This document shows, one piece after another, positions 2 to 56,040 of a stretch of DNA of 64,000 bases. Both the position numbers and the translations under genes were made by a program. The notes below the pieces were generated by a model. That model was not told where the DNA came from. It saw nothing but the letters and a program-made list of their open reading frames with translations, and ran no database searches. This DNA is from Cryobacterium tagatosivorans (GTDB taxonomy: Bacteria > Actinomycetota > Actinomycetes > Actinomycetales > Microbacteriaceae). Location of the stretch: assembly GCF_004402215.1 (NCBI RefSeq), contig NZ_SOEZ01000038.1, positions 1 to 64,000 of the forward strand, read 5' to 3'. Positions within the stretch are counted from its first letter, which is position 1. Every line of letters starts with the position of its first letter.

Positions 2-529
2 GATCTCGTGAAGCGGAAGTTCACCGCGACACGCCCGAACCAGCTGTGGCTGACCGACATCACCGAACACCGAACCGATGAGGGCAAGCTCTACCTCTGC
101 GCGATCAAGGACGTCTACTCGAACAAGATCGTCGGCTACTCGATCGATTCGCGGATGAAGGCGTCCCTGGCCGTCGCCGCGGCCCGGAACGCGATCGGCC
201 AGCGCACCATCAACGGCACGATCCTGCATTCCGACCGCGGGTCCCAATTTCGCTCCAACGCCTTCCTGCGGGTGCTGAAGAACAACGGCATCACCGGGTC
301 GATGGGGCGCGTGGGCGCTTGCGGCGACAACGCCGCGATGGAGTCGTTCTTCGCGCTCCTGCAGAAGAACGTCCTCGACCGGCAGCGCTGGGCGACGAGG
401 GAGGAGCGGCGCCTCGCGATCGTGGTCTGGATCGAGCGGACCTACCACCGGAAGCGCCGGCAACGCCGCCTTGGCAAGCTCACCCCGATCGAGTTTGAGA
501 CAATACACATGGCCCTCACGGCCGCCTGA
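2..529 (+). CDS. IS3-family transposase OrfB, 5' end cut by window
   Basis: Integrase catalytic (rve) half of an IS3-family transposase, which cuts and joins the insertion sequence ends. The DDE triad is visible: the first Asp in LWLTDITEH, the second in HSDRGSQF, and the Glu in NAAMESFFALLQKN. The frame stays open to base 2 upstream of the first GTG at 8, so the gene starts outside the window and the N-terminal part and OrfA are not visible. The C-terminus is intact and is followed by a plausible right inverted repeat (539-565). Confidence 0.9.
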   Translation, partial: DLVKRKFTATRPNQLWLTDITEHRTDEGKLYLCAIKDVYSNKIVGYSIDSRMKASLAVAAARNAIGQRTINGTILHSDRGSQFRSNAFLRVLKNNGITGSMGRVGACGDNAAMESFFALLQKNVLDRQRWATREERRLAIVVWIERTYHRKRRQRRLGKLTPIEFETIHMALTAA

Positions 530-538
530 AACCACTAA

Positions 539-565
539 CCACTTGAGTCAACTGAACTCGGGGCA
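539..565. repeat. Probable right terminal inverted repeat of the IS3 element
   Basis: This segment begins ten bases after the transposase stop and ends ...CTCGGGGCA, which fits the terminal CA of IS3-family ends. The partner repeat would lie left of the window, so it cannot be matched here. Confidence 0.45.
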
Positions 566-866
566 GTCCCTCGATCCACCGGTCGGCTATGGGGTCGTGT
601 CTGATTTCGGGTTGAATCAGTCGGGTGCGCTCGGGCGGGATGCCTCGATGACCGGCCAGACGTAGGCGCGCGAGTTGCTCGGACCAGCCGCGCGCGAGTA
701 CGGTGACCACTCCGGGGCTCCCGGTGCAAAGTATTTTTCGCGCCATCCGCTGACCTGGACATTTAGCGCAACGCTTAGCCAGCTGAAGAACAGGGCACCC
801 CTTGACCATCTGACCAGCTGCCTCGGCGCGATAGCGCACAAGCGGGAACACGCACCCCGGAAGACC
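566..866. other. Non-coding stretch between IS element and hydrolase gene
   Basis: No supported gene. Reading frames on both strands here are short or arginine/proline-rich shadows. The last bases hold the GGAAG ribosome binding site of the hydrolase gene. Confidence 0.5.
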
Positions 867-2255: not shown

Positions 2256-2627
2256 TTATGTGGTGGTGGCGATTTCGTGCCTGTCGGAGTCAAAGTCAAA
2301 GTCGGGGTCAAAGTCGGTGACGGCGCCGGTTTCGTAGAAGGCGAATGGTTCGGGTGGGGTGAGGGTTTGGGTGCGGGCACGGAGGTAGGCGAGCGCCGCG
2401 GCGGTGTCTGCTATTTCCCCGGGTGATTCCTCGGGGATGCTGATGAGTTCACTCTGGGGGCCAACGACGAGTTTTACGGTCATTGGTTTCCCTGTGCTGT
2501 TCACCGCGGGGAGTTCGAGTGTTTCCGTGGTTTGGCTGATTCCGAGTGCGATGACCAGCGGTAGGAGTGCATCTGCGACGGCGGCTGTGGTCAGGAATGA
2601 CGCTCCGCTGTATGAAATTCTTCTCAT
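2256..2627 (-). CDS. Hypothetical protein with acidic tail
   Basis: A 123-residue protein of unknown function. The core starting MRRISYSGASFL reads like folded protein: alternating hydrophobic segments, then TVKLVVGPQSELISIPEE and a helix DTAAALAYLRARTQ. The C-terminus ends in an Asp/Phe-rich run (DFDPDFDFDSD). The frame is open further upstream to an ATG at 2795, but that part is low-complexity, so the start at 2627 is preferred. It lies downstream of, and on the same strand as, the riboswitch at 3095-3178, so it could be the second gene of a c-di-GMP-controlled transcript. Confidence 0.55.
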   Translation of the reverse strand: MRRISYSGASFLTTAAVADALLPLVIALGISQTTETLELPAVNSTGKPMTVKLVVGPQSELISIPEESPGEIADTAAALAYLRARTQTLTPPEPFAFYETGAVTDFDPDFDFDSDRHEIATTT

Positions 2628-2888: not shown

Positions 2889-3080
2889 TCAGGTCGACAT
2901 CAGTGGTCGCCGTGACTGCTCGCTGATTCGTTGTCGATTTATGGTTGCCCGGCGACGAATCAGTGTCGTGGCGGTGTCGGTGTCGGTGAGGGCGCGTGAA
3001 TGTTCAGCGCTTCCGCTTGGCCAATAATTCAGGCCTACCGGTCCGGTGCGAAGGTCAGACTCGAGGAATGGAAAGCTCAT
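2889..3080 (-). CDS. Short ORF directly under c-di-GMP riboswitch A
   Basis: A 63-codon frame starting ATGAGC ten bases after the AAAAAGGA ribosome binding site at the 3' end of the riboswitch. Its first residues, MSFPFLES, match MNFPFVES at the start of the frame under the second riboswitch (11436), and the nucleotides match as well. The rest is Thr/Arg-rich and not recognisable, and may be decayed or a fusion to unrelated DNA. The start is well supported by position and conservation; the identity as a functional protein is not. Confidence 0.45.
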   Translation of the reverse strand: MSFPFLESDLRTGPVGLNYWPSGSAEHSRALTDTDTATTLIRRRATINRQRISEQSRRPLMST

Positions 3081-3094
3081 TTGGTGCCGGTCCT

Positions 3095-3178
3095 TTTTCA
3101 TTCGGTGGGACGGCTAACCCGAAGGTCCCGTGCTTTTGCGACCCCGCCTCTCCACGGGTGTGCCTTTGCGACTGGCCT
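3095..3178 (-). ncRNA. c-di-GMP-I (GEMM-I) riboswitch, copy A
   Basis: Reading the minus strand, the segment has the order of conserved blocks of the GEMM-I aptamer: CGCAAAGGCACACCC, a hairpin closed by a GAGA (GNRA) tetraloop, GGGGTCGCAAAAGCACGGG, then CCTTCGGGTTAGCCG and CCACCGAA. GEMM-I RNAs bind cyclic-di-GMP and control the gene downstream. A ribosome binding site (AAAAAGGA) follows at once and no terminator hairpin is seen, which suggests translational control. The boundaries are approximate. The GNRA loop and the CGCAAA...CACGGG core are the decisive features. Confidence 0.8.
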
Positions 3179-3557
3179 ATGGAACCGCCTCGCCTTTATA
3201 TGACCACCTGCGCTGAACATAGCACCGGGGTGAATGGTTTGTGCCGACGATTGTGGGAACCGTACCCCCAAAGAGAGGGTCGCCGGTGCGTCAGCTGTGG
3301 GACGGCACCCGGCAGATTTGTGGCACCGCCGTGCGATTATCGGCCGGCATTCACGGTCCGCCGGTGATTGCCAGTCCGACGCGGACATCCTCCTCCTGAA
3401 CTCAGGAGAAAAATGAAATCCGCCAGGAACGAATTGAGGTTGCGCTGATGCCTTCCCAGTGAGCCTGTTGAGGAGCACACTTCTCTCATTGACCCGGGCC
3501 GACACCGTATGGGGCGGGCAGAAGAGACCAAACCCGAAATGGTCCCCGGTGCAATTT
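3179..3557. other. Intergenic region upstream of riboswitch A
   Basis: No supported gene. On the minus strand a TATA-rich element (CATATAAAGG, near 3196-3206) lies upstream of the aptamer and may be its promoter. The remainder shows nothing recognisable. Confidence 0.35.
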
Positions 3558-3590
3558 GGGTCAGGGTGACACCCGAATGTCCCCTGACCC
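3558..3590. terminator. Hairpin terminator after recombinase remnant
   Basis: Inverted repeat GGGTCAGGG / CCCTGACCC with further pairing of GACA/TGTC inside, six bases after the minus-strand stop codon at 3596. There is no T-tract, as is common for terminators in high-GC actinobacteria. Confidence 0.6.
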
Positions 3591-3595
3591 ACTCC

Positions 3596-4072
3596 TCAGA
3601 ACACGACGTCGAAACCCTGCCAACAAGTCGGCATTGTGACGGACGCGAAGACATCGCCGTCTACGTCACTCAAGATGCCGAGGCGGAAGAGGCCCTGCCT
3701 GGTCGCCGGCATCGTGTCGCGGTAATGAGCCCAGCTCGCCCCTGTGCATTCGTCTCGGGCAACACAGGCCGACGCTAGATCATCGAAGTCGGTGGTCGTG
3801 AGGTCGTCCAGGGGCCGCCCCGAGCCGATCAGAAGCCGAAGGACGATTTGGGACGCCATCGCTGAGGTGACTCGCTCGCTGCATCCCTGACCGCGGGCTG
3901 CGGTCGTGAATGCGACCACGTCATTCTCCAGCGGGGTGCCGCCGATCTCCCGCCAGACGCTGCTGAACTTGCGGCCGAGGAGGTAGTCATAGCCGGGTTG
4001 CAAGGGCCGGGTCAGCATCAGGAATGTTAGGAACGGCCGTAATGACTGGCTCGCTGAAAGCCGAACCTCCAA
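3596..4072 (-). pseudogene. Tyrosine recombinase, only N-terminal domain left
   Basis: The product resembles the N-terminal, DNA-clamping part of transposon- or ICE-borne tyrosine recombinases: LTRPLQPGYDYLLGRKFSSVW, then SERVTSAMASQIVLRLL and a helix DLTTTDFDDLASAC. The frame stops after about 150 residues, so the catalytic domain with the Arg...His-x-x-Arg...Tyr residues is absent and does not follow in another frame. The likely start is ATG 4018; the frame is open to 4072. It is best read as an inactivated remnant of a mobile element. Confidence 0.65.
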
Positions 4073-4276
4073 GGGTCAAACCGCTTGTACTCAGATTGTG
4101 GGCCCGGAGTCAGGCCCGTCGCTGTCGGGTCCACGCATGAGGCCGGTTCGCCACCGGGGGTGCCAGCGGACTGCAGTGGACGGGTTGCCGGAACTCCCGA
4201 CTGACTGCGAGACAATGTCGCGGGCATGTGCTTCCTCGATGTTGGGCTGTGGCAAGTCTCGTAGACACTTCTTTGG

Positions 4277-6925
4277 TCAGAGACCCCTACGCTGCCCCCG
4301 ACCGCCGCTGGGCGCCCCCAGCCACTCCGGGATCTCCTCCGGCGCAAGCGGCCGGGACCACAGGAACCCTTGGGCCAGACGGGATCCGATCCGGCGCAGC
4401 TCCCGCAGCTGCTCCGCGGACTCCACCCCCTCCGCGATGACGTCAAGGTCCAGCGCTCTGGCGAGACTGACGATCGCATCGACGATCGACGAAGCGTGCG
4501 GGTCGTCCCCGCCCAAACCCTTGACGAAGGACTGGTCGATCTTGATCGTCTGCACCGGCAGACGGCTCAGGTAGCTGAGCGCGGCATACCCGGTGCCGAA
4601 ATCGTCAATGGACAGCCGCACCCCGAGTGAGCGCAGCCCGTGCAGGGTTCCCATCGCCGCCTCAACATCGTTCATCACCATGGTTTCCGTAATTTCGAGG
4701 TGCAGTGCCATCGGGTCCAATCCGGTCTGCGTGAGGGCGTCCTCGACAACCCCGAGGAAGTCTGGATCCTGCAATTGCAGGGTCGACAGGTTCACGGAAA
4801 TCGACAGGTCTTCAGCCCCGGGGGCCTCCGTGCGCCATTTCTGTGCTTGTGCGAGAGACTGCCGCAGCACCCACTCGCCGATCGGAATGATCATGCCGGT
4901 TTCCTCCGCGACCGGGATGAACTCAATCGGCAAGATCAACCCGCGCTGCGGGTGCACCCACCGCACCAGCGCCTCGAAGCCAACGACATCCTCGGTCGAC
5001 ACCTCGACGATGGGCTGGTAGTAAACGCGCAACTCGTCCTTGTCCAGGGCGCGCGCTAGTTGGGAATCGAGGTCGAGCCGACTCGACGCTTTGCGGTGCA
5101 TCTCCTCGCTGAACACCATTGCTTGCGCGCGACCGTTATCCTTCGCCTGGTACATCGCGGTATCCGAATTGCGGAGCACGGTCACCGCTTCTTCGTCCCC
5201 GTTGGCGAGCACAATGCCCACGCTGACGGTGACGAACACCTCCCGGCCCTCCAACACGAACGGTTCCTTACCCGAGGCCGCGATTCGCGTGACCAGCCGT
5301 TCGGTGTTCTCCCGTGTCATGTTCTCGCAGACAATGACGAACTCGTCGCCGCCGAACCGGGCTACCGTGTCGGTGGGCCGCACCATGGACTGCAGCCGCC
5401 TGGCCATCTGCACGAGCAGCTGGTCGCCGGCCGTATGCCCCAGGCCGTCGTTGACGATCTTAAACTGGTCGGCATCGAGGAGGAGCACGCTGACCTGACC
5501 GCCGGATTCTCTTGCGTCGGCGAGGGAACGGTCGAGACTCTCGGTTAGCAGCAGCCGGTTGGCTAGGCCGGTCAGCGGATCGTGGAAGGCCTGGTATTCG
5601 AGCATCTCCTCGGCCTGCTTACGGGAGGTGGTGTCCTGCAACTGCACGAACGTATATGCCGGTTCCCCGTCTCTCCCTGGCACGAGCGAAACGGTCTCCT
5701 GCACCCACACCACGTCGCCGTCCGGCCGCAGATACCGCCGTTCTTTGTGGACGGACTCGGTCTCGCCGGATCGCAGGCGAGCGGATCGCCCGGACCGGTC
5801 CCCGGTGTCCTCCGGGTGGAGGAAATCCTGGGTCCGCTTACCCAGAACCTCATCCTCCCTGCGCCCGAGGATCTCACACACGGCCGGGTTGACCCGCTGG
5901 AACCGCCCGTCAAGATCGGCCATGCCCATGCCGATCGGCGAACGATCGAAACCAAGGTGGAAATTAGTCTCGGCCTCCCGGCGCTTCGCGACCGCCAGAT
6001 ACAGATCCGTCACGTCCATGGTCGTGCCAAGGATCCGGGCGGGCGATCCATCCTCGGCGTATTCAAAGCTCAAGATTGACCGCACCCAGCGCATCTGGCC
6101 GGACGGGAGCACAATGCGGTAGCCAAAGTCCAACGCAGGTCCGCCGGAGTCAAGCTTCCGCCACACCCCTTCAACCCGGTCTCGATCATCGGGATGCACA
6201 GCAGCGAGCATCAGTTCCCGCGACGCCGGCTGTGTTTCGTCGACCCCGAGAATCCGCCAGTACTCAGCGGACCACGACTGTTCACCGGTGGCCATGTCGA
6301 TCGCGAAGCTGCCGACATGCGCCGTCTGCTGTGCTGCGGCCAAACCAAACCGGTCGGCCTCCTCTGCCGTGTAACCGAACATGGAGCCGGCCGCCGCCTT
6401 CCACGTCGTAATCGCACCGTCGACGGCATATCGGAAGATGGCGTCGCTCGACGACTCGACCAAAGTCGACAGCATCCGCATGTCCGCTTCGGTGCGTTTG
6501 CGATCGGTAATATCACGGATGGCGCTTGAGAAGAGCATTCCCTGGTCGGTCTTGAGCGGGCTGAGCGAGATCTCGACCGGGAACTCCGACCCGTCCCGGT
6601 GCCGGGCGAGAAATTCGAGATTCGAGCCCATGTCCCGCACGTGCGGGGCGTCGGCGTAGCGCGTGAGATGCCCGGCATGCTGGGCACGGAACCGTTCCGG
6701 TAAGAGCATCTCAATGCGCTGACCAAGCATCTCCGCACGGGAATGACCGAAGAGCCGCTCCGCCTGCGCGTTGACCAATACGATCTCGCGGTCGGTGTTC
6801 ACGATGACCATGGCATCCGGCGCCGCTTCGAGGAGCCCGCGGAATTGGTTGATGGACTGCACACGCGCACCCAGCGCCTCGATCACGTCTGGATGCGTGC
6901 CATCGGCTACCACGAAGTCTCCCAC
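4277..6925 (-). CDS. PAS-GGDEF-EAL c-di-GMP turnover protein
   Basis: An 882-residue soluble sensor enzyme for cyclic-di-GMP. Domains in order: PAS (about 25-145), the first part of a second PAS (150-190), PAS-3 type (200-308), PAS (320-435), GGDEF (440-603) and EAL (615-865). The cyclase motif RFGGDEF is intact at 524-529, and the inhibitory I-site RPTD is five residues before GGDEF (516-519). The phosphodiesterase motifs EAL (651-653), SVNLS, EITET, DDFGTGY (774-780) and EGVE (832-835) are also intact, so both making and breaking c-di-GMP are possible. There are no membrane segments. The second PAS looks shortened and joined directly to the next. It lies between the two c-di-GMP riboswitches on the same strand, which suggests it sets the signal they read. 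Confidence 0.93.
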   Translation of the reverse strand: MGDFVVADGTHPDVIEALGARVQSINQFRGLLEAAPDAMVIVNTDREIVLVNAQAERLFGHSRAEMLGQRIEMLLPERFRAQHAGHLTRYADAPHVRDMGSNLEFLARHRDGSEFPVEISLSPLKTDQGMLFSSAIRDITDRKRTEADMRMLSTLVESSSDAIFRYAVDGAITTWKAAAGSMFGYTAEEADRFGLAAAQQTAHVGSFAIDMATGEQSWSAEYWRILGVDETQPASRELMLAAVHPDDRDRVEGVWRKLDSGGPALDFGYRIVLPSGQMRWVRSILSFEYAEDGSPARILGTTMDVTDLYLAVAKRREAETNFHLGFDRSPIGMGMADLDGRFQRVNPAVCEILGRREDEVLGKRTQDFLHPEDTGDRSGRSARLRSGETESVHKERRYLRPDGDVVWVQETVSLVPGRDGEPAYTFVQLQDTTSRKQAEEMLEYQAFHDPLTGLANRLLLTESLDRSLADARESGGQVSVLLLDADQFKIVNDGLGHTAGDQLLVQMARRLQSMVRPTDTVARFGGDEFVIVCENMTRENTERLVTRIAASGKEPFVLEGREVFVTVSVGIVLANGDEEAVTVLRNSDTAMYQAKDNGRAQAMVFSEEMHRKASSRLDLDSQLARALDKDELRVYYQPIVEVSTEDVVGFEALVRWVHPQRGLILPIEFIPVAEETGMIIPIGEWVLRQSLAQAQKWRTEAPGAEDLSISVNLSTLQLQDPDFLGVVEDALTQTGLDPMALHLEITETMVMNDVEAAMGTLHGLRSLGVRLSIDDFGTGYAALSYLSRLPVQTIKIDQSFVKGLGGDDPHASSIVDAIVSLARALDLDVIAEGVESAEQLRELRRIGSRLAQGFLWSRPLAPEEIPEWLGAPSGGRGQRRGL

Positions 6926-7430
6926 GGGGGCACGCTATAGCGGTGCCCGCTCGCCTCAGCATACTGTGACCCTGCAGGCGTGTGCAATCGTGGCCTCACC
7001 CAACCCTGACACGTAGGGACGCGATCATGGACCGGATCATCCACAACACGATCTGGGTCGAGACCGGCAACTACAACATGCGCGAGCACACAGCACTCGC
7101 CACCGCCTAGCCACCGTGACGGAGGGCGTCAGCGGCACCATGCCACCCGACCACTGGCGCTCTCTCGCACGAACCCCGGCGCTGAACCGCACGAACAGGC
7201 GGCGCTCAAGGCTTCAAATACTCACTGCGATTATCGGGGGTAAGAAACCACCCCCTTGAACCGAGATGAGGCTGAGCAGAAAAAGGGGCTGGGGACCTTC
7301 GAGTCGGGCTGTCCACGCGGCCTGGCCGGCCCGGCCGGCCCGGCCACCTGGCCAGCATGACCAGCTGGGGCACTCAGGCCGGACAGCCCTCTTCCGGCCG
7401 ACCATCCGGCCACCGGCCACCGGCCGCCTT
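6926..7430. other. Intergenic region with small hairpin and GC-rich repeats
   Basis: No supported gene. A hairpin GGGGGT / ACCCCC with an 8-base loop (7236-7255) lies downstream of the nucleotidyltransferase gene and may terminate it. Next to it is a run of alternating CCGG/GGCC (about 7319-7347). A 27-codon plus-strand frame (7027-7110) is too short to support. Confidence 0.4.
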
Positions 7431-8159
7431 CTACGCGCCTAGCGCGACGAGCAGCCGTTCGATTCCGAGGTCGGACCCGTCGATGGCAGGGATGATGGTC
7501 CCGTCCATGCGGATGGCCCCGATCGCGTTCTTGAGCCGCTCGCGGTCCCGCTTGGTTATCTGCGCCGCCAGCAGGTCGCCACGGGCGATGAGGGTGGTGA
7601 GCACAGCGAAGTCTATGAGGTGCCGTTTGACGCCCTGGTCAAGCGGGACGGTGAACGCGGCAGCTTTGAGGACGAGCGCTCCGAGCAGGTTCGGCCGCCA
7701 GATCTGCGCCTGGCGCCCTTCGTGGCTGACGGTGACTATCTCAGCCCGGTCGATTGCTTGATTGGATCCTCGGGCTTCCAGGGCGGTGCCGCCGGTGACG
7801 CCGCGCCGGGCTGCCGCCCTCTCACCGACGTGTTCGGGGATGAGGAGGTCGATGGTGGCATCACCGCGGGTCCACCGGTGCTGATGACCTTCGGGGCTTT
7901 CGCCGGCGGACTCGAAGCCGATGTCAACGAGGGCCTTGGTGACCTGATGGAGGATGGTGGGCTGCGCGCGCACATCCAAGACGGCGTCCGCGTCGTCGGT
8001 CGGCCGGTTCGGCGTGATACCCCGTTCAATGCACCAGAGGTGCACCATCTGGCCGCCGACCAGGCACCAGTTGTTCGGCACCTTCTCGGCCAGGTCGAAG
8101 AGGGCGTGCCAGGCCAGCGAAGACCTCTGACCGAGCACCGGCATTTCGATGACGGTCAT
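7431..8159 (-). CDS. AbiEii-like nucleotidyltransferase (putative toxin)
   Basis: A 242-residue protein with the fold signature of AbiEii/AbiGii-type and other minimal nucleotidyltransferases. A Gly-Gly motif in LVGGQMVHLW (33-42) is followed by TDDADAVLDV (54-63), which supplies the metal-binding acidic pair, and a third acidic residue sits in TIDLLIP (102-107). Family members act as toxins of type IV toxin-antitoxin or abortive-infection pairs, or modify tRNA or proteins. Its start overlaps the stop of the upstream HTH gene by four bases (ATGA), so the two are translationally coupled. The exact target is unknown. Confidence 0.75.
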   Translation of the reverse strand: MTVIEMPVLGQRSSLAWHALFDLAEKVPNNWCLVGGQMVHLWCIERGITPNRPTDDADAVLDVRAQPTILHQVTKALVDIGFESAGESPEGHQHRWTRGDATIDLLIPEHVGERAAARRGVTGGTALEARGSNQAIDRAEIVTVSHEGRQAQIWRPNLLGALVLKAAAFTVPLDQGVKRHLIDFAVLTTLIARGDLLAAQITKRDRERLKNAIGAIRMDGTIIPAIDGSDLGIERLLVALGA

Positions 8160-8800
8160 CGGTTGCTCAGCAGCTCTTTGACCCGCTTGCTTTCGCGTGG
8201 ACCGGCGTGGTCGGCGAGGTCAGCGAGGACCAGTCCGAGCGGCGCTCGCCCGTCGGCGTCCGCTTGGACGCGAGCAAGATGGAGCCAGACATTCGGCATC
8301 TTCGCCTCGACCAACAAGTACTCGCTTATCAACCCATCGGCGAACTCGGGCGCGACATAGCCTTCAACCTCATGCTCGCTGCTGAGGCCCGCGCGGTCGT
8401 CACTGATCCCGGAGAGGACAATGCGCTTGTCGCTGCGGAGGTCCGCTAGATCACCAGCGTTCGCGTGCAGGGCACGGACCGGTGCGCGATTCCGGAGCCA
8501 GCTGGCAAGGAGGGGCGCCGGCGCGGCGTTTTCGAGCAGGGCAGCGCACTTGCGGTCCAGAAGCCAGCGGGCCTTCGCCTCCATGTTCTCTGGTTCGATG
8601 CCGGACAGCAGAGCGATGAACGACCATGAGTTGGCTGGGCTCAGCGGGCGGGAGAGCGGAGGCTGCCGGCGGAGTTCTGACTCGTCGATCCCCCAGCTCG
8701 AGCCGATCTTCTCGGCATCGACCTTGCCCTCGCGGATCAGCTGGTGCACGCGCGCGACGGAGATGTCCTGGCGGGCGGCATACTCTTTCACACTCAACAT
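8156..8800 (-). CDS. HTH antitoxin-like protein, partner of AbiEii-like gene
   Basis: About 214 residues. The N-terminus MLSVKEYAARQDISVARVHQLIREGKVDAEKIGSSWGIDESEL (in part) is a MerR/excisionase-like winged helix that would bind DNA. The rest is helical and unrecognised. It is first in a two-gene operon with the nucleotidyltransferase, which fits an AbiEi-type antitoxin and autorepressor. The start near 8800 is preferred over an upstream TTG because a promoter-like element and an operator-like palindrome lie immediately upstream. No ribosome binding site is seen, so the mRNA may be leaderless. Confidence 0.65.
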   Translation of the reverse strand: MLSVKEYAARQDISVARVHQLIREGKVDAEKIGSSWGIDESELRRQPPLSRPLSPANSWSFIALLSGIEPENMEAKARWLLDRKCAALLENAAPAPLLASWLRNRAPVRALHANAGDLADLRSDKRIVLSGISDDRAGLSSEHEVEGYVAPEFADGLISEYLLVEAKMPNVWLHLARVQADADGRAPLGLVLADLADHAGPRESKRVKELLSNR

Positions 8801-8803
8801 GTC

Positions 8804-8838
8804 ACAAGGGTATAACCGCTGAAAGGCTTGTGACAAGT
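8804..8838 (-). promoter_or_regulatory. Promoter with palindromic operator for the Abi-like pair
   Basis: Perfect palindrome CTTGTCACAAG (about 8828-8838) covers a -35-like TTGTCA. After 16 bases comes TATACC, then a second half-site CTTGTGACATG that runs into the ATG. This arrangement suggests autorepression by the HTH protein and a leaderless transcript. Confidence 0.5.
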
Positions 8839-8937
8839 ATCAGAAAGAATGGGCAAGGTGACGGCTCATCGGAGAATGAACGCGTTCGTGCGGATCATCA
8901 CAGAGGCCAGCGAGCTGCCACGGAGCACCTTCGCCGT

Positions 8938-9207
8938 CTATCCAGACTCTTCGAGAGCCTCATCCAGCTCACGAGGCTTGTCGAATTCCTCTGCGGTTGG
9001 ACCGCACGTCACCACGCAAAGCCGTGCTGCCACCAGACACTCTCGCCTTCCGGTGACCGCGAGCGACCGCAACCCCGTCACGGGCGCGAACCAGGTGGCG
9101 CAGACCATCTTCGGCAGCACTGCGTAGACGAGCCCATCAGCAGGGCCCAGCCTGGAACGGGTGACCGGGCTGGCCGATCGCGGTCCGTCCATCAGGGTGT
9201 ACCCCAT
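8938..9207 (-). CDS. Possible small hypothetical protein
   Basis: An 89-codon frame whose C-terminal two thirds read plausibly as protein (GLVYAVLPKMVCATWFAPV, then an acidic EEFDKPRELDEALEES tail). No ribosome binding site, domain or operon partner supports it. It could also be chance reading between the Abi-like genes and the recombinase. Confidence 0.3.
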   Translation of the reverse strand: MGYTLMDGPRSASPVTRSRLGPADGLVYAVLPKMVCATWFAPVTGLRSLAVTGRRECLVAARLCVVTCGPTAEEFDKPRELDEALEESG

Positions 9208-9250
9208 CGAGCAGGTCGAAAACCCTGAGAACTGCGTCCAACAGGGTGGG

Positions 9251-9269
9251 TGTCCGATATGGTTGGACA
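9251..9269. promoter_or_regulatory. Resolvase crossover-like site (res/inv type)
   Basis: TGTCCGATATGGTTGGACA is an imperfect dyad 23 bases before the recombinase start. TGTCCGATA matches the half-site consensus known for gamma-delta/Tn3 resolvases. It may be a recombination site and at the same time an autoregulatory operator. Only one clear copy is visible. Confidence 0.45.
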
Positions 9270-9291
9270 GAAGCGACGGGGGATCCAAATC

Positions 9292-9882
9292 ATGACTGGA
9301 CACAAAGGGCAGGTGGTCGGGTACGTGCGCGTCAGCGCCGCCGACCAGAACGAAGCGCGGCAGGTCGAAGCACTCGGCACATTGGACAAGATATTCTCCG
9401 AGAAGGTTTCGGGCAAGAACGCCCACGACCGAGTGCAGCTCCAGGAAATGCTCGCGTACGTGCGCGATGGCGACAAGGTACGGGTGAAGTCACCGGACCG
9501 CCTGGCCCGTTCGACGACAGACCTTCTCGCGCTCGTCGAACAGCTCAAGGGTAAGGGCGTCGCTCTGGAGTTCGTTGACAACCCCGCCTTGAATTCGGAC
9601 ACCCCTCAAGGGGAATTCATGCTCACGGTTCTCGCCGCCATCGCTCAGTTGGAGCGCAAGACCATCCGCGAGCGGCAGGCAGAAGGCATTGCCATCGCCA
9701 AGCGGGACGGAAAGTACGAGAAGGCTCCGAAGCTCGCACTGGAGCAGATCGCAGAAGCCCGCGAGCGAGTCGACGCTGGTGTGCCGAAAGCGTTGGTGGC
9801 CCGAGACCTCGGGGTGTCACGACAGACGCTCTACGCCGCGCTGAACAGTTCCGGGAAGTACGCTGCGTTGGCGGGAATCTAG
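9292..9882 (+). CDS. Serine recombinase (resolvase/invertase family)
   Basis: A complete 196-residue small serine recombinase. The nucleophilic Ser lies in GYVRVSAADQ, the active-site arginines in SPDRLARSTTDLL, and the long E helix reads GEFMLTVLAAIAQLERKTIRER. The C-terminal HTH is GVPKALVARDLGVSRQTLYAAL. Family members resolve cointegrates or invert segments at short dyads. The ATG at 9292 has GGGGGA upstream and gives the canonical N-terminus; an in-frame ATG at 9250 would include the res-like site. It lies within accessory DNA, so it probably belongs to a former transposon or plasmid. Confidence 0.92.
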   Translation: MTGHKGQVVGYVRVSAADQNEARQVEALGTLDKIFSEKVSGKNAHDRVQLQEMLAYVRDGDKVRVKSPDRLARSTTDLLALVEQLKGKGVALEFVDNPALNSDTPQGEFMLTVLAAIAQLERKTIRERQAEGIAIAKRDGKYEKAPKLALEQIAEARERVDAGVPKALVARDLGVSRQTLYAALNSSGKYAALAGI

Positions 9883-10318
9883 AGCAGTGTTGCCTCCCAC
9901 GGACTAGGGCGAGCACCTCTGCCGGAGTGTGGCGGCAGCTGCCGGCCGGAGACGTTCCTGGCCGCCGTCCGTTGGCGCGGGCGAGCCCCGAGCGCGGCCT
10001 CTTGCACTTTCCGCGCTTGCACACAACTCATCCGCACCGAGGTCGACACTCGTTGTCGTCCCGTGCGGGGAAACCCTCAGCGGGACATCGGATTTGTCCG
10101 CAAAGCGGATTCCCTACCGGACTGCTTGATCTTTGATAGCCAGGCGAATCACGCGGGTTGTCGTATACCTGGGCTTGAGTTCCACTCGTGCGACGGTGGT
10201 GGGGCGGAGACGCTGCGACTTATCGCGCTTGATGCGGGACTACAAGTGGAAGGCGGGATCGCCGAGAGCCATAGGATGAGCGTAGTAATCCACATCTCTA
10301 CTCTGGGGGAATCACAGC
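9883..10318. other. Intergenic region between recombinase and lipoprotein
   Basis: About 435 bases with no supported gene. The composition is more AT-rich than the flanks near 10120-10180. The last bases carry the upstream region of the lipoprotein gene (CTGGGGGAATCACAGC before the ATG). Confidence 0.4.
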
Positions 10319-10789
10319 ATGAACCGTCGCATCGTTGCTCTGACCATCGCTGTCGTCGCAGTACTGGGGCTCACCGCTTGCTCGGGAGGGTCGGACGACG
10401 CCCCGTCCAGCGAACCGGCTGCCACGTCGGCTCCTGCCGAAGACACGAGCACCGAGCAGACGGTCGCCGAAGCCTGCGTGAGCATGGCTGGACCGTTGCA
10501 GGAAGCGGCTACCACGATCTCCGAGGTCGCCAATGCTGCCTCCGACCCGCAGTCTGCCGTTGACGCCTGGACCGCCAACGTCGATGCATTCCGCACCGTC
10601 TCGGAGTCCGTGACCACCCCGGAGGTCAAGGCGGCCGCGACCGCGGTGTACGAAGACACCGCCGCCGTGCGTGACGCGATCGCGAAGATTTACGTCGATG
10701 GGGACACGGGCGCGGTGACCGAACTCACCACCGCGACCAGTGACATGCAGACCTCGTACATGGCGCTGAACACGCTCTGCGCGGGCTGA
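10319..10789 (+). CDS. Small secreted lipoprotein
   Basis: A 156-residue protein with a type II signal peptide: MNRR, a hydrophobic core, then lipobox LTAC with Cys21. A Ser/Ala/Glu-rich linker follows, then a helical domain of about 100 residues with two further Cys (in EACVSMAG and NTLCAG) that could form a disulfide. It is expected to be anchored to the outer face of the membrane. No family is recognised. GGGGGA lies upstream of the ATG. It stands alone. Confidence 0.85.
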   Translation: MNRRIVALTIAVVAVLGLTACSGGSDDAPSSEPAATSAPAEDTSTEQTVAEACVSMAGPLQEAATTISEVANAASDPQSAVDAWTANVDAFRTVSESVTTPEVKAAATAVYEDTAAVRDAIAKIYVDGDTGAVTELTTATSDMQTSYMALNTLCAG

Positions 10790-11022
10790 TCCAACGAGAG
10801 GTCTTGTAGTCCTCTCTTCGGCCGGCGCACCGCTCAACCACTCGACGGATCAGAGGCTCTTCCCACGAGGAGACGACCCTGGTCGGCCTATCGGCAGTCG
10901 ATACGCCGCCCGGTGGTTCAGACGATGACGCCCAGCCGCCAGGCGCCCGTATGTCGAACCCTCTGCGGGACCGCGCTGAAAGCGCCGGCCTCGAGGACCG
11001 GGATGCCCGGCGCACCAATCGT

Positions 11023-11436
11023 TCAATCGCCGGGTTTCCCTTTCACCGGCGTCGCGACCTGCTTTGCATCTGCGCCGCGCCTGCTAGTGAGCTCATACGT
11101 CGTTCCGTCGCAACCGTCGCCGAGCCACATGCCAAAGGCCACCTGCCCATTGACATCAATCGGGTCGACGAGAACCGTGGGTAGCTGACCGTATCGATTC
11201 GGTTCAAGGATCACCGCCGATATCGGTTCCAACGAATCCACACCGTAAAGAGTGACGGTCATCGTGCTTTTGGCTCTGAGAAGAGTGCCGGTCCAAACTC
11301 CATCGCTGTCGGTGATCGAACTTGGTGCGCGTCGTTTTCGGCTCGGTAACCGCGTGAATGCTGCCAGGACCCATCCGGGAAGTGCGCGTGGTCCCGGCTC
11401 AGGCCGAGCACATGACTCGACAAAGGGGAAGTTCAT
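11023..11436 (-). CDS. ORF under c-di-GMP riboswitch B
   Basis: A 137-residue frame beginning ten bases after the AGGA ribosome binding site at the 3' end of riboswitch B. It opens MNFPFVES, matching MSFPFLES of the frame under riboswitch A. The C-terminal 85 residues read like a folded, beta-rich domain (MTVTLYGVDSLEPISAVILE, QVAFGMWLGDGCDGTTYEL). Residues 9-45 are Arg/Pro-rich and weak, so a frameshift or a later start at MTVTLYG is possible. No domain is recognised. It is presumably expressed according to c-di-GMP level. Confidence 0.5.
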   Translation of the reverse strand: MNFPFVESCARPEPGPRALPGWVLAAFTRLPSRKRRAPSSITDSDGVWTGTLLRAKSTMTVTLYGVDSLEPISAVILEPNRYGQLPTVLVDPIDVNGQVAFGMWLGDGCDGTTYELTSRRGADAKQVATPVKGKPGD

Positions 11437-11449
11437 CTGGCATTGGTCC

Positions 11450-11540
11450 TATTCGTTCGGCGGGCCGGCTGACCCGAGGGTCCCGTGCCTTTGCGACGCC
11501 GCCTTACGACGGGTGTGCCTTTCGCGATCGACGTGAGTAC
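11450..11540 (-). ncRNA. c-di-GMP-I (GEMM-I) riboswitch, copy B
   Basis: The minus strand carries the GEMM-I aptamer blocks: GCGAAAGGCACACCC, a hairpin with a GTAA (GNRA) tetraloop, GGCGTCGCAAAGGCACGGG, then CCCTCGGGTCAGCCG and CGCCGAACGAA. It aligns along its whole length with copy A at 3095-3178, and the similarity continues through the ribosome binding site into the first eight codons. The sensed ligand is expected to be cyclic-di-GMP. No terminator is visible, so the control is probably at translation. Confidence 0.82.
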
Positions 11541-11691
11541 CGCCACGCCAGCGGCCTGCGACCGCCTGGGGTGAACGTAACAGCCCGATCTTCGTTGTGG
11601 AGAGCCCCAGAACGGGGTCTCCGCAGGACGTGACCCGAGTGGAGTAAGCGAATCCCTTCCGGTCGCGGGCTTCGGGGCGTAGAGTCCCGGA

Positions 11692-11823
11692 ATGGACGAC
11701 CTCGAGCCCCTCTATCCACCGAACTGCCTAAACTGTTCGACCAGATGCGAAACGTCAGGGACAACTGCTCACCCCTACTGGGTGTGTCCGGGTTGCCACA
11801 CGGCGGTGCTGTCCAGATTCTAG
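11692..11823 (+). CDS. Tiny four-cysteine zinc-ribbon protein, copy 1
   Basis: A 43-residue protein, MDDLEPLYPPNCLNC... ending PYWVCPGCHTAVLSRF. Two CxxC pairs (NCLNC, VCPGC) would hold one zinc ion. It is a paralogue of the 39-residue proteins at 14678 and 18883, sharing MDD, P-N-C-x-x-C and P-Y-W-x-C-P-x-C. TAGAGT six bases before the ATG suggests a -10 element and a leaderless mRNA. Function unknown; such ribbons usually bind nucleic acid or proteins. It is followed 92 bases later by another small zinc-ribbon gene. Confidence 0.65.
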   Translation: MDDLEPLYPPNCLNCSTRCETSGTTAHPYWVCPGCHTAVLSRF

Positions 11824-11914
11824 ACAGATGCGGCGGTCGCGGACTTACAGTTACGTTCCTACGCAAGCACGTCGCTTTTGCGCTCGAGATACACACTGAA
11901 GGAGAAGGATAAAG

Positions 11915-12127
11915 GTGAGCTTCCACCCCCGATGTCAGGGAACGGGATGCGAAGGTGGCATGCGCGTGCTCGACCCCTCAACGCTGACCCTCTTGGACGA
12001 GGAAATCTGGTTCCAATGTGAGCAATGCGGAACCCACACGCATTCGGCGAACCTGGATGTCGACGACAACAACCGTTGGAGCCATCGTGTGGTGTGCTTC
12101 GTGAGTTCTTCAGTCGCTACTCACTGA
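11915..12127 (+). CDS. Small zinc-ribbon protein
   Basis: A 70-residue protein with two cysteine pairs, CQGTGC near the N-terminus and FQCEQCGTHTH in the middle, forming a likely treble-clef or zinc-ribbon site. The GTG start at 11915 has a strong AAGGAGAAGG ribosome binding site. It differs from the MDD family nearby but has the same general character. No partner or function can be named. Confidence 0.65.
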   Translation: MSFHPRCQGTGCEGGMRVLDPSTLTLLDEEIWFQCEQCGTHTHSANLDVDDNNRWSHRVVCFVSSSVATH

Positions 12128-12196
12128 CCATCCCACTGGCTCTGTGCAGCTTCCGGATTCGTTGGGTCTCGCTGACATCGGAGTCGTTTTTCTGAG

Positions 12197-12901
12197 CTAG
12201 AGAACGGTGGGCTGTACCTCAGCCCAAGCTCGGAGCGTCGGCGGGGCGCCGGCGCTCGGCCCATAGAAGCCAGCCAGGTAGTCATGCATGATGCGTCGGC
12301 TCTCAGCGATGAACCGCGGGTCGCCCTGCGGGTTGGACTGGAACGCGCGCGACAGAAGCGCGTCGGCTATCTCGACGGTGATCTCCAGTCGAAAGATCAG
12401 GTCCGGACCTGCCGGCAGTCCGAATTCGTCGACGAGCACGTTGGCGAGCTGGCGGGCGAAGAAGCCAGCGACGTCGTCGGTCGCGCTGATGGGTGCTCGG
12501 TCGCGGTCGGCGAAGTGCAGGATGCGGAAGCCCGGCTCGAAGCGGTAGAGGCCGACGAACGCGGTGACCGCGCAATCGACGGCATCCCACCAGGTCTTCG
12601 GTTGCCTGGCGCCTAGTTCCTCGGCGACGCGCTGTCTGCAGCGCAGCACGGCGCGTTCGCGTAGGGCGTGCAGTACGGCCACCCGATCAGGGTAGTACCG
12701 ATAAACGGTGCCGATCGATGCGCCGGCACGCTCGGCGACCATCGCCGTCGTGATGCGGTCGAAGCCCACCTCGTCGACGACGGCTGCGGCGGCATCCAGC
12801 AGCGCAGAAAGACGTGCGGCACTGCGCTGCTGCATGGGCTCGGTGCGAATTTGCTGGCCCGGGGCCCCGGGCTCATGACCAAAGGCGCCATTTAGCGACA
12901 C
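12197..12901 (-). CDS. TetR-family regulator, accessory paralogue
   Basis: A 234-residue TetR repressor. The N-terminal HTH (RSAARLSALLDAAAAVVDEV through GASIGTVYRYYPDR) is essentially identical for some 70 residues to the regulator at 55246-55932, and the ligand domain is also clearly homologous but diverged. It starts at GTG 12901 with AAGGAGGATAA upstream, matching the start used by the other copy. Identical DNA-binding domains predict shared operators and possible cross-talk. It is convergent with the small zinc-ribbon gene at 11915 and divergent from the GntR gene at 13030. Confidence 0.92.
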   Translation of the reverse strand: MSLNGAFGHEPGAPGQQIRTEPMQQRSAARLSALLDAAAAVVDEVGFDRITTAMVAERAGASIGTVYRYYPDRVAVLHALRERAVLRCRQRVAEELGARQPKTWWDAVDCAVTAFVGLYRFEPGFRILHFADRDRAPISATDDVAGFFARQLANVLVDEFGLPAGPDLIFRLEITVEIADALLSRAFQSNPQGDPRFIAESRRIMHDYLAGFYGPSAGAPPTLRAWAEVQPTVL

Positions 12902-13009
12902 TTATCCTCCTTGACGATTCAGCACAACACTAGAGGAGTGACTCCTGGTGAACCGCGAGGCGAGGTTCAGTGCCGTCTCCCTCACAAGAATGTATCCATT
13001 GGCAATTCC

Positions 13010-55245: not shown

Positions 55246-55932
55246 TCAGGAGCGCTGCGAGAGGACCGGGGCGTTCGAGCCGACGCTGGGTCCGTAGAAG
55301 CCCACGAGGTAGTCGTGCATGATCCGACGGCACTCGGCGATGATCCGCTCGTCGCCCTGCGGGTCGGACGCGAAGGCGCGCGACAGGAGGGCGTCGGCCA
55401 TTTCGATGGTCATTTCCAGCCGGAAGTTCAGGTCCGGCCCGGCCGGCAGGCCGAACTCCTCGGCGAGGATGTCGGCGAGGCGTCGGGCGAAGAAGCCGGA
55501 TTCGGCGTCGCCGTCGGCTTCCGGGGTGCGCTCGCGATCGGCGAAGTGGAGGATGCGGAAACCCGCCTCGGAGCGGTAGAGACCGACGAACGCGGTGACG
55601 GCGCAGTCGACGGCATCCCACCACGTCTCCGGTCGGGTGAGGTTCATCTCCTCGACGAAACGCTGACGGAAACGCAGCACGGCCCGCTCGCGCAGCGCGT
55701 GCAACACGGCAACGCGGTCGGGGTAATAGCGGTAGACGGTGCCGATCGAGGCCCCGGCGCGTTCGGCGACCATCGCGGTCGTGATGCGGTCGAAGCCGAC
55801 CTCGTCGACCACGGCGGCGGCAGCGTCGAGCAGGGCAGACAGGCGGGCTGCACTGCGCTGCTGCATGGGTTCGGTACGGATCTGCTGGCCCTGGCCGGTT
55901 GATCCGTCCCCGATGATGTCATTAAGCGACAC
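55246..55932 (-). CDS. TetR-family regulator, core paralogue
   Basis: A 228-residue TetR repressor starting at GTG 55932 with GAGGAGGAAAC upstream. Its HTH (SALLDAAAAVVDEVGFDRIT to GTVYRYYPDRVAV) is the same for about 70 residues as in the protein at 12197. The ligand domain ends MHDYLVGFYGPS in both. It lies next to the osmolyte transporter and divergent from the App1 gene; the target is unknown. Confidence 0.93.
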   Translation of the reverse strand: MSLNDIIGDGSTGQGQQIRTEPMQQRSAARLSALLDAAAAVVDEVGFDRITTAMVAERAGASIGTVYRYYPDRVAVLHALRERAVLRFRQRFVEEMNLTRPETWWDAVDCAVTAFVGLYRSEAGFRILHFADRERTPEADGDAESGFFARRLADILAEEFGLPAGPDLNFRLEMTIEMADALLSRAFASDPQGDERIIAECRRIMHDYLVGFYGPSVGSNAPVLSQRS

Positions 55933-56040
55933 GTTTCCTCCTCGACGCCTCGTCACATCTTACGGGTTGCCGCCGGTGGCTTTGTGTCGCGGCGCGCATG
56001 GCAGACTGGGTGGGTGCCAGAGTCCCCCGAATCGCCGAGC

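Follow-up and report, generated by a model that had tools for sequence, protein, structure and literature searches.

The enzymes of cyclic di-GMP (c-di-GMP) metabolism work on a common pool, and it is an open question how an individual enzyme gains an effect of its own. GEMM RNA, the c-di-GMP-I riboswitch (Rfam family RF01051), has already been described upstream of diguanylate cyclase and phosphodiesterase genes, according to passages of PMC12564702, which cites Weinberg and Sudarsan. Here we analyse 64,000 nucleotides (nt) of Cryobacterium tagatosivorans, the start of a 139-kb contig in a genome of 3.78 Mb (hereafter the window), where a gene for a PAS-GGDEF-EAL protein lies between two c-di-GMP-I riboswitches. 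The riboswitches are of the same Rfam family as those described, but the window enzyme stands beside its riboswitches, not behind them. A search of the open-licence literature returned nothing on c-di-GMP riboswitches in Cryobacterium; the one paper with both 'Cryobacterium' and 'riboswitch' (PMC8164766) concerns ANTAR RNAs. Nor did that search contradict the statement, made in an earlier reading of the DNA from its letters alone (the sequence-only reading), that no locus with such a layout had been described.

Two other groups of described systems are close to this locus. In the Vc2 aptamer of Vibrio cholerae, the ligand is contacted by G20, A47 and C92 (excerpts of PMC4744006), and by hand mapping both window aptamers keep the same letters at these positions (GGC, CAAA and CC). 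They differ from Vc1 and Vc2 at the base of P2, which can form A-U and C-G pairs in place of the AA and GA of the Rfam consensus, in a start codon 19-20 nt past the aptamer, and in the surrounding genes. In another actinobacterium, Mycobacterium tuberculosis, riboswitch-led upstream open reading frames (uORFs) have been reported (Mbox-uORF, PMC12810186; B12 riboswitch-uORF, PMC11260477), with the same order of riboswitch, short upstream ORF and main gene. Unlike these, the Cryobacterium elements belong to a family with another ligand, and no C-over-G excess follows leaders of the window type: behind 22 of them we saw no Rho-like C-rich, G-poor skew, the mean of C minus G being 0.023 against a background of 0.008 (standard deviation 0.065).

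We favour the view, to which we would give a probability of roughly 55%, that the window carries one of a pair of paralogous loci belonging to a set of c-di-GMP-I riboswitches that extends across the genus and is linked to c-di-GMP enzymes, and that a small protein, with a domain here named GQLP, and the enzyme form a loop through riboswitch 1. The PAS-GGDEF-EAL enzyme would add to or lower c-di-GMP; riboswitch 1 would sense it and set translation of the GQLP protein, which may in turn act on the enzyme beside it or on paralogs of that enzyme, thus closing the loop. Riboswitch 2 would set a leader ORF and, by way of it, the gene that follows, or may be on its way to loss.

Riboswitches and GGDEF genes across Cryobacterium

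RF01051 was sought in 100 related genomes, 57 of them Cryobacterium, and is present in 26, including 20 of the Cryobacterium genomes. The survey found 55 riboswitches; setting aside six from other genera left 49 in 20 genomes, one of which scores below the gathering cut-off of 35 bits (31.0 bits). We compared their positions with 242 of the 258 GGDEF matches in these genomes, measuring from aptamer centre to GGDEF-domain centre and taking as expected counts the share of each genome lying near a GGDEF (genome sizes rounded, contig ends ignored, positions transferred by hand). Of the 49 riboswitches, 24 have a GGDEF domain within 5 kb, against 1.45 expected, and 34 have one within 10 kb, against 2.65 expected; since the loci are related by descent across genomes, the counts are not independent, which tempers their support for our reading, and the size of the excess says more than any probability would.

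A control was provided by f123, the family of the second gene past riboswitch 2 (see below). Away from five riboswitch loci, its members have a GGDEF within 10 kb in only 1 of 30 cases (12 genomes; 35 of 36 matches used, one match being split and its second half dropped), although some of these 30 sit far off on contigs that also carry a riboswitch. Of the five matches set aside, two do have a GGDEF within that distance. The general link between riboswitches and c-di-GMP enzymes is thus strongly supported.

In 12 of 49 cases a GGDEF or GGDEF-EAL frame of 509-795 amino acids (aa) starts 14-19 nt past the aptamer; a thirteenth riboswitch has the same arrangement with a broken frame, and three more (G001_C23, G056_C30 and G011_C68; G, C and L numbers are our handles for genomes, contigs and loci) have a GGDEF as first long or second gene. 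Judging transcription units by strand and spacing only, as we did throughout, 26 of the 49 have a GGDEF gene within the same-strand run behind them.

Several other kinds of genes are headed by these elements. Six riboswitches precede runs encoding a methyl-accepting chemotaxis protein (MCP), CheA, CheB, CheR and a REC-GGDEF protein in that order, all six read by tblastn. In this they resemble Wsp-type chemosensory operons, the last gene of which encodes a REC-GGDEF cyclase; unlike those, the Cryobacterium runs are headed by a c-di-GMP-I riboswitch, and they lie outside the window. The example at L082:1905-9964 (-), which has five counterparts, was also read by Pfam, as was the MCP of a second locus, and shows a CheW as well, sought at L082 only. 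Six further riboswitches head pairs of WxL-like surface-protein genes, and four of these runs continue on the same strand to a GGDEF-EAL protein. The model WxLIP_PGBD scores above its cut-off at contig C60 of the window's own genome (33.8 bits) and in G013 (31.3 bits), and the WxL domain in C60 falls just under (23.6 against 25); in three of the six loci (G004, G046 and G001) the models are below cut-off or unmatched, and the pairs are named there by size, order and signal peptide. At L005, the WxL-like gene (7518-8093) and the WxL-interacting-protein gene (6283-7323), both on the minus strand, stand behind the riboswitch, likewise at L080 and L067 and, less surely, at L052, L054 and L050.

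Five riboswitches head an alpha-amylase-family gene, presumably sucrose-phosphorylase-like, followed by an f123 gene (one of the five was scanned with Pfam). At L068:10291-11781 (+) and the four other loci the order is riboswitch, leader ORF with an ISWFG..PAVA motif, alpha-amylase-family gene and f123; a CorA-like gene comes next in L068. A single riboswitch heads an ice-binding protein gene (L047:8818-9948 (-); PF11999, 198.5 bits), which lies directly behind the 75-bit element G007:C30 19268-19344; its frame is open from 20 nt past the aptamer and begins with ATC where the others have ATG. On L078 (G005:C2, 117,589 bases), the smaller of its genome's two contigs and possibly a plasmid, a riboswitch and leader ORF lie near GGDEF and f123 genes.

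Most of these aptamers share a variant form: 39 of the 49 carry GUCGCAAA and GGCACA, with A-U and C-G pairs that lengthen P2 at its base. That this form might be peculiar to Cryobacterium was considered and rejected, the exact pattern occurring in 67 stretches, 28 from Cryobacterium and 39 from other organisms in several phyla (pattern matches only). Many variant aptamers are immediately preceded by a conserved block of roughly the form GGCGAGRCGG...ACGTC (alignment A1, columns 5-30), a candidate P1 or promoter element. An ATG or GTG lies 14-22 nt past the aptamer in 47 of the 49.

The enzyme, its flanking aptamers and the paralogous locus

A cmscan search of the window gave exactly two Rfam matches above gathering score, both RF01051 on the minus strand: aptamer 1 at 11456..11529 (50.8 bits, E 5.5e-7), of the variant GGCACA...GUCGCAAAGGC form, and aptamer 2 at 3101..3174 (37.3 bits, E 0.0011). 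Two c-di-GMP riboswitches do therefore flank the enzyme on one strand, as the sequence-only reading had proposed; of the distances it gave, 4.5 kb holds from riboswitch 1 to the enzyme start, but riboswitch 2 begins 1.1 kb past the enzyme end, not 1.8 kb. In aptamer 1, 20 of the 21 P2/P3 pairs are intact and one is broken. Specificity for cAMP-GMP (GEMM-Ib) is not expected in either aptamer, the diagnostic letter being G, not A.

The enzyme itself (4277..6925, minus strand, 882 aa) comprises PAS domains, a GGDEF domain (153.7 bits) and an EAL domain (252.3 bits). An RxxD I-site lies five residues ahead of GGDEF (RPTD-TVARF-GGDEF), and on the EAL side we read FEALVRW, VNLS, LEITETM, IDDFGTG, TIKIDQSFV, AEGVE and AQGF. 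Taking these motifs, as we do, to be the diagnostic ones for catalysis and the I-site, both domains are, to judge from the translation, intact in motif, in agreement with the earlier description of an enzyme with all catalytic residues and an intact I-site. No riboswitch was found in the enzyme's own leader. A serine resolvase/invertase gene (9250..9882, +) and a lipoprotein-like ORF (10319-10789, +) lie on the plus strand between riboswitch 1 and the enzyme, which makes a single transcription unit unlikely. A conserved accessory role was considered for the lipoprotein-like ORF and for ORF 3596-4072 and rejected, neither having relatives in the fetched loci.

Is the closeness of enzyme and riboswitches an accident? 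The whole genome holds four RF01051 matches (two in the window, two on contig C60) and 12 GGDEF domains in its 3.78 Mb, so that chance is an unlikely explanation. The second locus, on C60, is a paralog of the first. It has a PAS-GGDEF-EAL gene with 74% DNA identity to the window enzyme over about 2 kb, and it encodes two small proteins of the GQLP type; a riboswitch there heads a WxL-like gene, with a WxL-interacting-protein gene behind it. Aptamers and flanks are 74-87% identical between the two loci (aptamer 1: 87%), window positions 11654-12143 are 91% identical to C60, and the stretch 12143-12987, containing a TetR-family regulator gene upstream of riboswitch 1 (12197..12901, -), is 96% identical. 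A second TetR gene of the window, at 55246-55956 (-), has 79.5% DNA identity to the first. In the WxL-like run at L005, a gene at 5640-6182 (-) encodes a DtxR-type C-terminal half and a FeoA domain, in which we did not find the DNA-binding domain; in G051 a relative stands directly behind a riboswitch. L005 also has a second, shortened WxL-like gene at 277-777 (+), about 7 kb from the longer copy.

The unequal age of these duplicated stretches (96%, 91%, 87% and 74% for the TetR stretch, positions 11654-12143, aptamer 1 and the enzyme) could also point to debris: copies of riboswitch and leader would have been spread by duplication and recombination in a mobile-element island, some of them decaying, and their closeness to an enzyme would be without function. 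C60 does carry a fifth, decayed riboswitch copy (9542-9695, 27.9 bits) ahead of a GQLP-type small protein, and another, at 4612, whose start codon is gone from its usual position. Riboswitch 2 of the window is weakened, and mobile elements are at hand: besides the resolvase, a transposase fragment at the contig end (8..529, +; integrase core PF00665, 87.9 bits), with copies 91% and 96% identical in DNA in two other Cryobacterium loci. The GC content of the first 36 kb of the window is below that of most of the remainder, which together with transposase and resolvase is in keeping with accessory DNA, as the sequence-only reading had suggested. We nevertheless regard debris as a rather improbable account of the locus, in view of the genus-wide excess of GGDEF domains beside riboswitches, the lack of such an excess around the control family f123, and the nearly intact riboswitch 1.

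Small genes behind the riboswitches

The gene behind riboswitch 1 (11023..11436, -), whose start codon lies 19 nt past the aptamer, encodes 137 aa: a leader-like N-terminus, MNFPFVES, and then a domain of about 70 residues, which we named GQLP. Its predicted structure is beta (mean pLDDT confidence score 66, about 84-93 for residues 61-110, the first 50 residues being unreliable). A fold search with this model gave no PDB match at E <= 0.001, and a sequence search for a solved relative gave none either (best E 0.1). In G026 and G004, GGDEF-EAL proteins carry the GQLP domain at their N-terminus; GQLP genes adjoin GGDEF-EAL genes in G013 and G046, and in G025 a window-enzyme relative has its start overlapped by a GQLP frame. 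From this domain fusion and gene order, a role of the protein as enzyme partner seems likelier than one as output of the circuit, although many members of the family lie elsewhere.

Past riboswitch 2, a 63-codon leader ORF (MSFPFLES..., 2889..3080, -) starts 20 nt after the aptamer; a longer ORF of 70 aa starting at 3101 begins on the last base of aptamer 2, and counting from a start codon at the normal spacing yields 63 aa. The second gene (2256..2627, -) encodes the 123-aa f123 protein. GQLP and f123 proteins match no named family in Pfam and NCBIfam scans; six f123 members scanned gave only sub-threshold matches (DUF3188 in one, E 0.013), and a fold search with the f123 model (mean pLDDT 66) returned no PDB match at E <= 0.001. 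Members of f123 occur in 56 of the 57 Cryobacterium genomes, and 37 of the 57 are without RF01051. The proposal that the two small genes are simply the outputs of the locus is thus not supported: in other genomes GQLP is part of GGDEF-EAL proteins or coupled with them, and f123 is nearly universal in the genus with or without the riboswitch.

Behind 23 of the 55 riboswitches, the 137-aa ORF included, stands a short ORF that conforms to a single loose pattern, usually M-[SN]-F-P. Over codons 2-8 of the 23 leader starts we counted 279 synonymous and 700 non-synonymous codon differences. The ratio of non-synonymous to synonymous differences (pN/pS) is 0.35 in one group of five, indicating purifying selection, and 1.12 and 0.83 in two groups of three, indicating none. 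We do not claim a common expression platform with pairing between the Shine-Dalgarno sequence and the aptamer 3' strand, this pairing not being the main one predicted for aptamer 1. The predicted main partner of the Shine-Dalgarno sequence lies 8 nt before the aptamer end in 8 of the 39 variants, including aptamer 2 (probability 0.46), and at an adjacent position in two more.

Conservation of the layout and the proposed loop

Five other Cryobacterium genomes (G047, G025, G037, G029 and G001) encode a relative of the window enzyme, with at least 57% identity across the conserved part and E <= 1e-150; the enzyme's own genome has two more, on C60 and on a third contig, C66. The regions around the relatives in four of these genomes and on C66 gave no riboswitch with the genus model, and no match of either riboswitch model was found in the whole genomes of G047, G025, G037 and G029; G001 has three riboswitch matches, all on contigs other than that of its enzyme relative. 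Among the genomes searched, the layout of one enzyme between two riboswitches is therefore not a conserved unit, and by the refuting condition that the sequence-only reading itself had named this counts against it; only the paralogous C60 repeats the combination. The window locus rather resembles, in rearranged form, the runs of riboswitch, WxL-like gene, GQLP gene and GGDEF-EAL gene in other Cryobacterium species.

What does this leave of the dedicated local circuit proposed by the sequence-only reading, in which the enzyme would set c-di-GMP for both riboswitches and the two small genes would be its outputs? Proximity, the shared strand, the intact catalytic motifs and the repetition of the elements at C60 speak for it, and its premise of a link between riboswitch and enzyme stands, far beyond chance, across the genus; the three-part layout was seen only in the genome where it was noticed. 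We consider such a circuit unlikely, as the arrangement does not recur near the enzyme's relatives, the 12 GGDEF domains of the genome act on one diffusible pool, GQLP looks like an enzyme partner and riboswitch 2 is weakened.

The view we favour, a GQLP-enzyme loop within a genus-wide set of enzyme-linked riboswitches, has to accommodate several results that weigh against it. None of the five other genomes with an enzyme relative has a riboswitch near it, and there is none near the third paralog, on C66. Aptamer 2 has 3 of its 21 P2/P3 pairs broken, the second-worst value among the 39 variant aptamers. Judged from these pairs riboswitch 2 is weakened, with its ligand-contact letters kept; the worst-paired variant aptamer of all heads a GGDEF-EAL gene, and a low pairing score alone is thus no proof of loss. 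GQLP, present in 22 of the 57 Cryobacterium genomes, is not confined to those with riboswitches (10 with RF01051, 12 without), and only three of its 15 matches in 12 genomes have a GGDEF domain within 1 kb, eight having none within 100 kb or none on the same contig. Finally, folding predictions for the variant aptamers revealed no single common structure masking the Shine-Dalgarno sequence.

It is tempting to go further and to see a closed feedback loop, in which a c-di-GMP riboswitch sets GQLP and GQLP regulates the neighbouring GGDEF-EAL protein, as one form of a genus-wide rule by which riboswitches would govern c-di-GMP enzymes, chemosensory operons, surface proteins and an ice-binding protein; we put this forward as a tentative and rather doubtful extension. 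With about half of the c-di-GMP-I riboswitches near such enzymes (24 of 49 within 5 kb) and a quarter serving as the leader of one (12 of 49), Cryobacterium would allow a direct test of RNA-level feedback.

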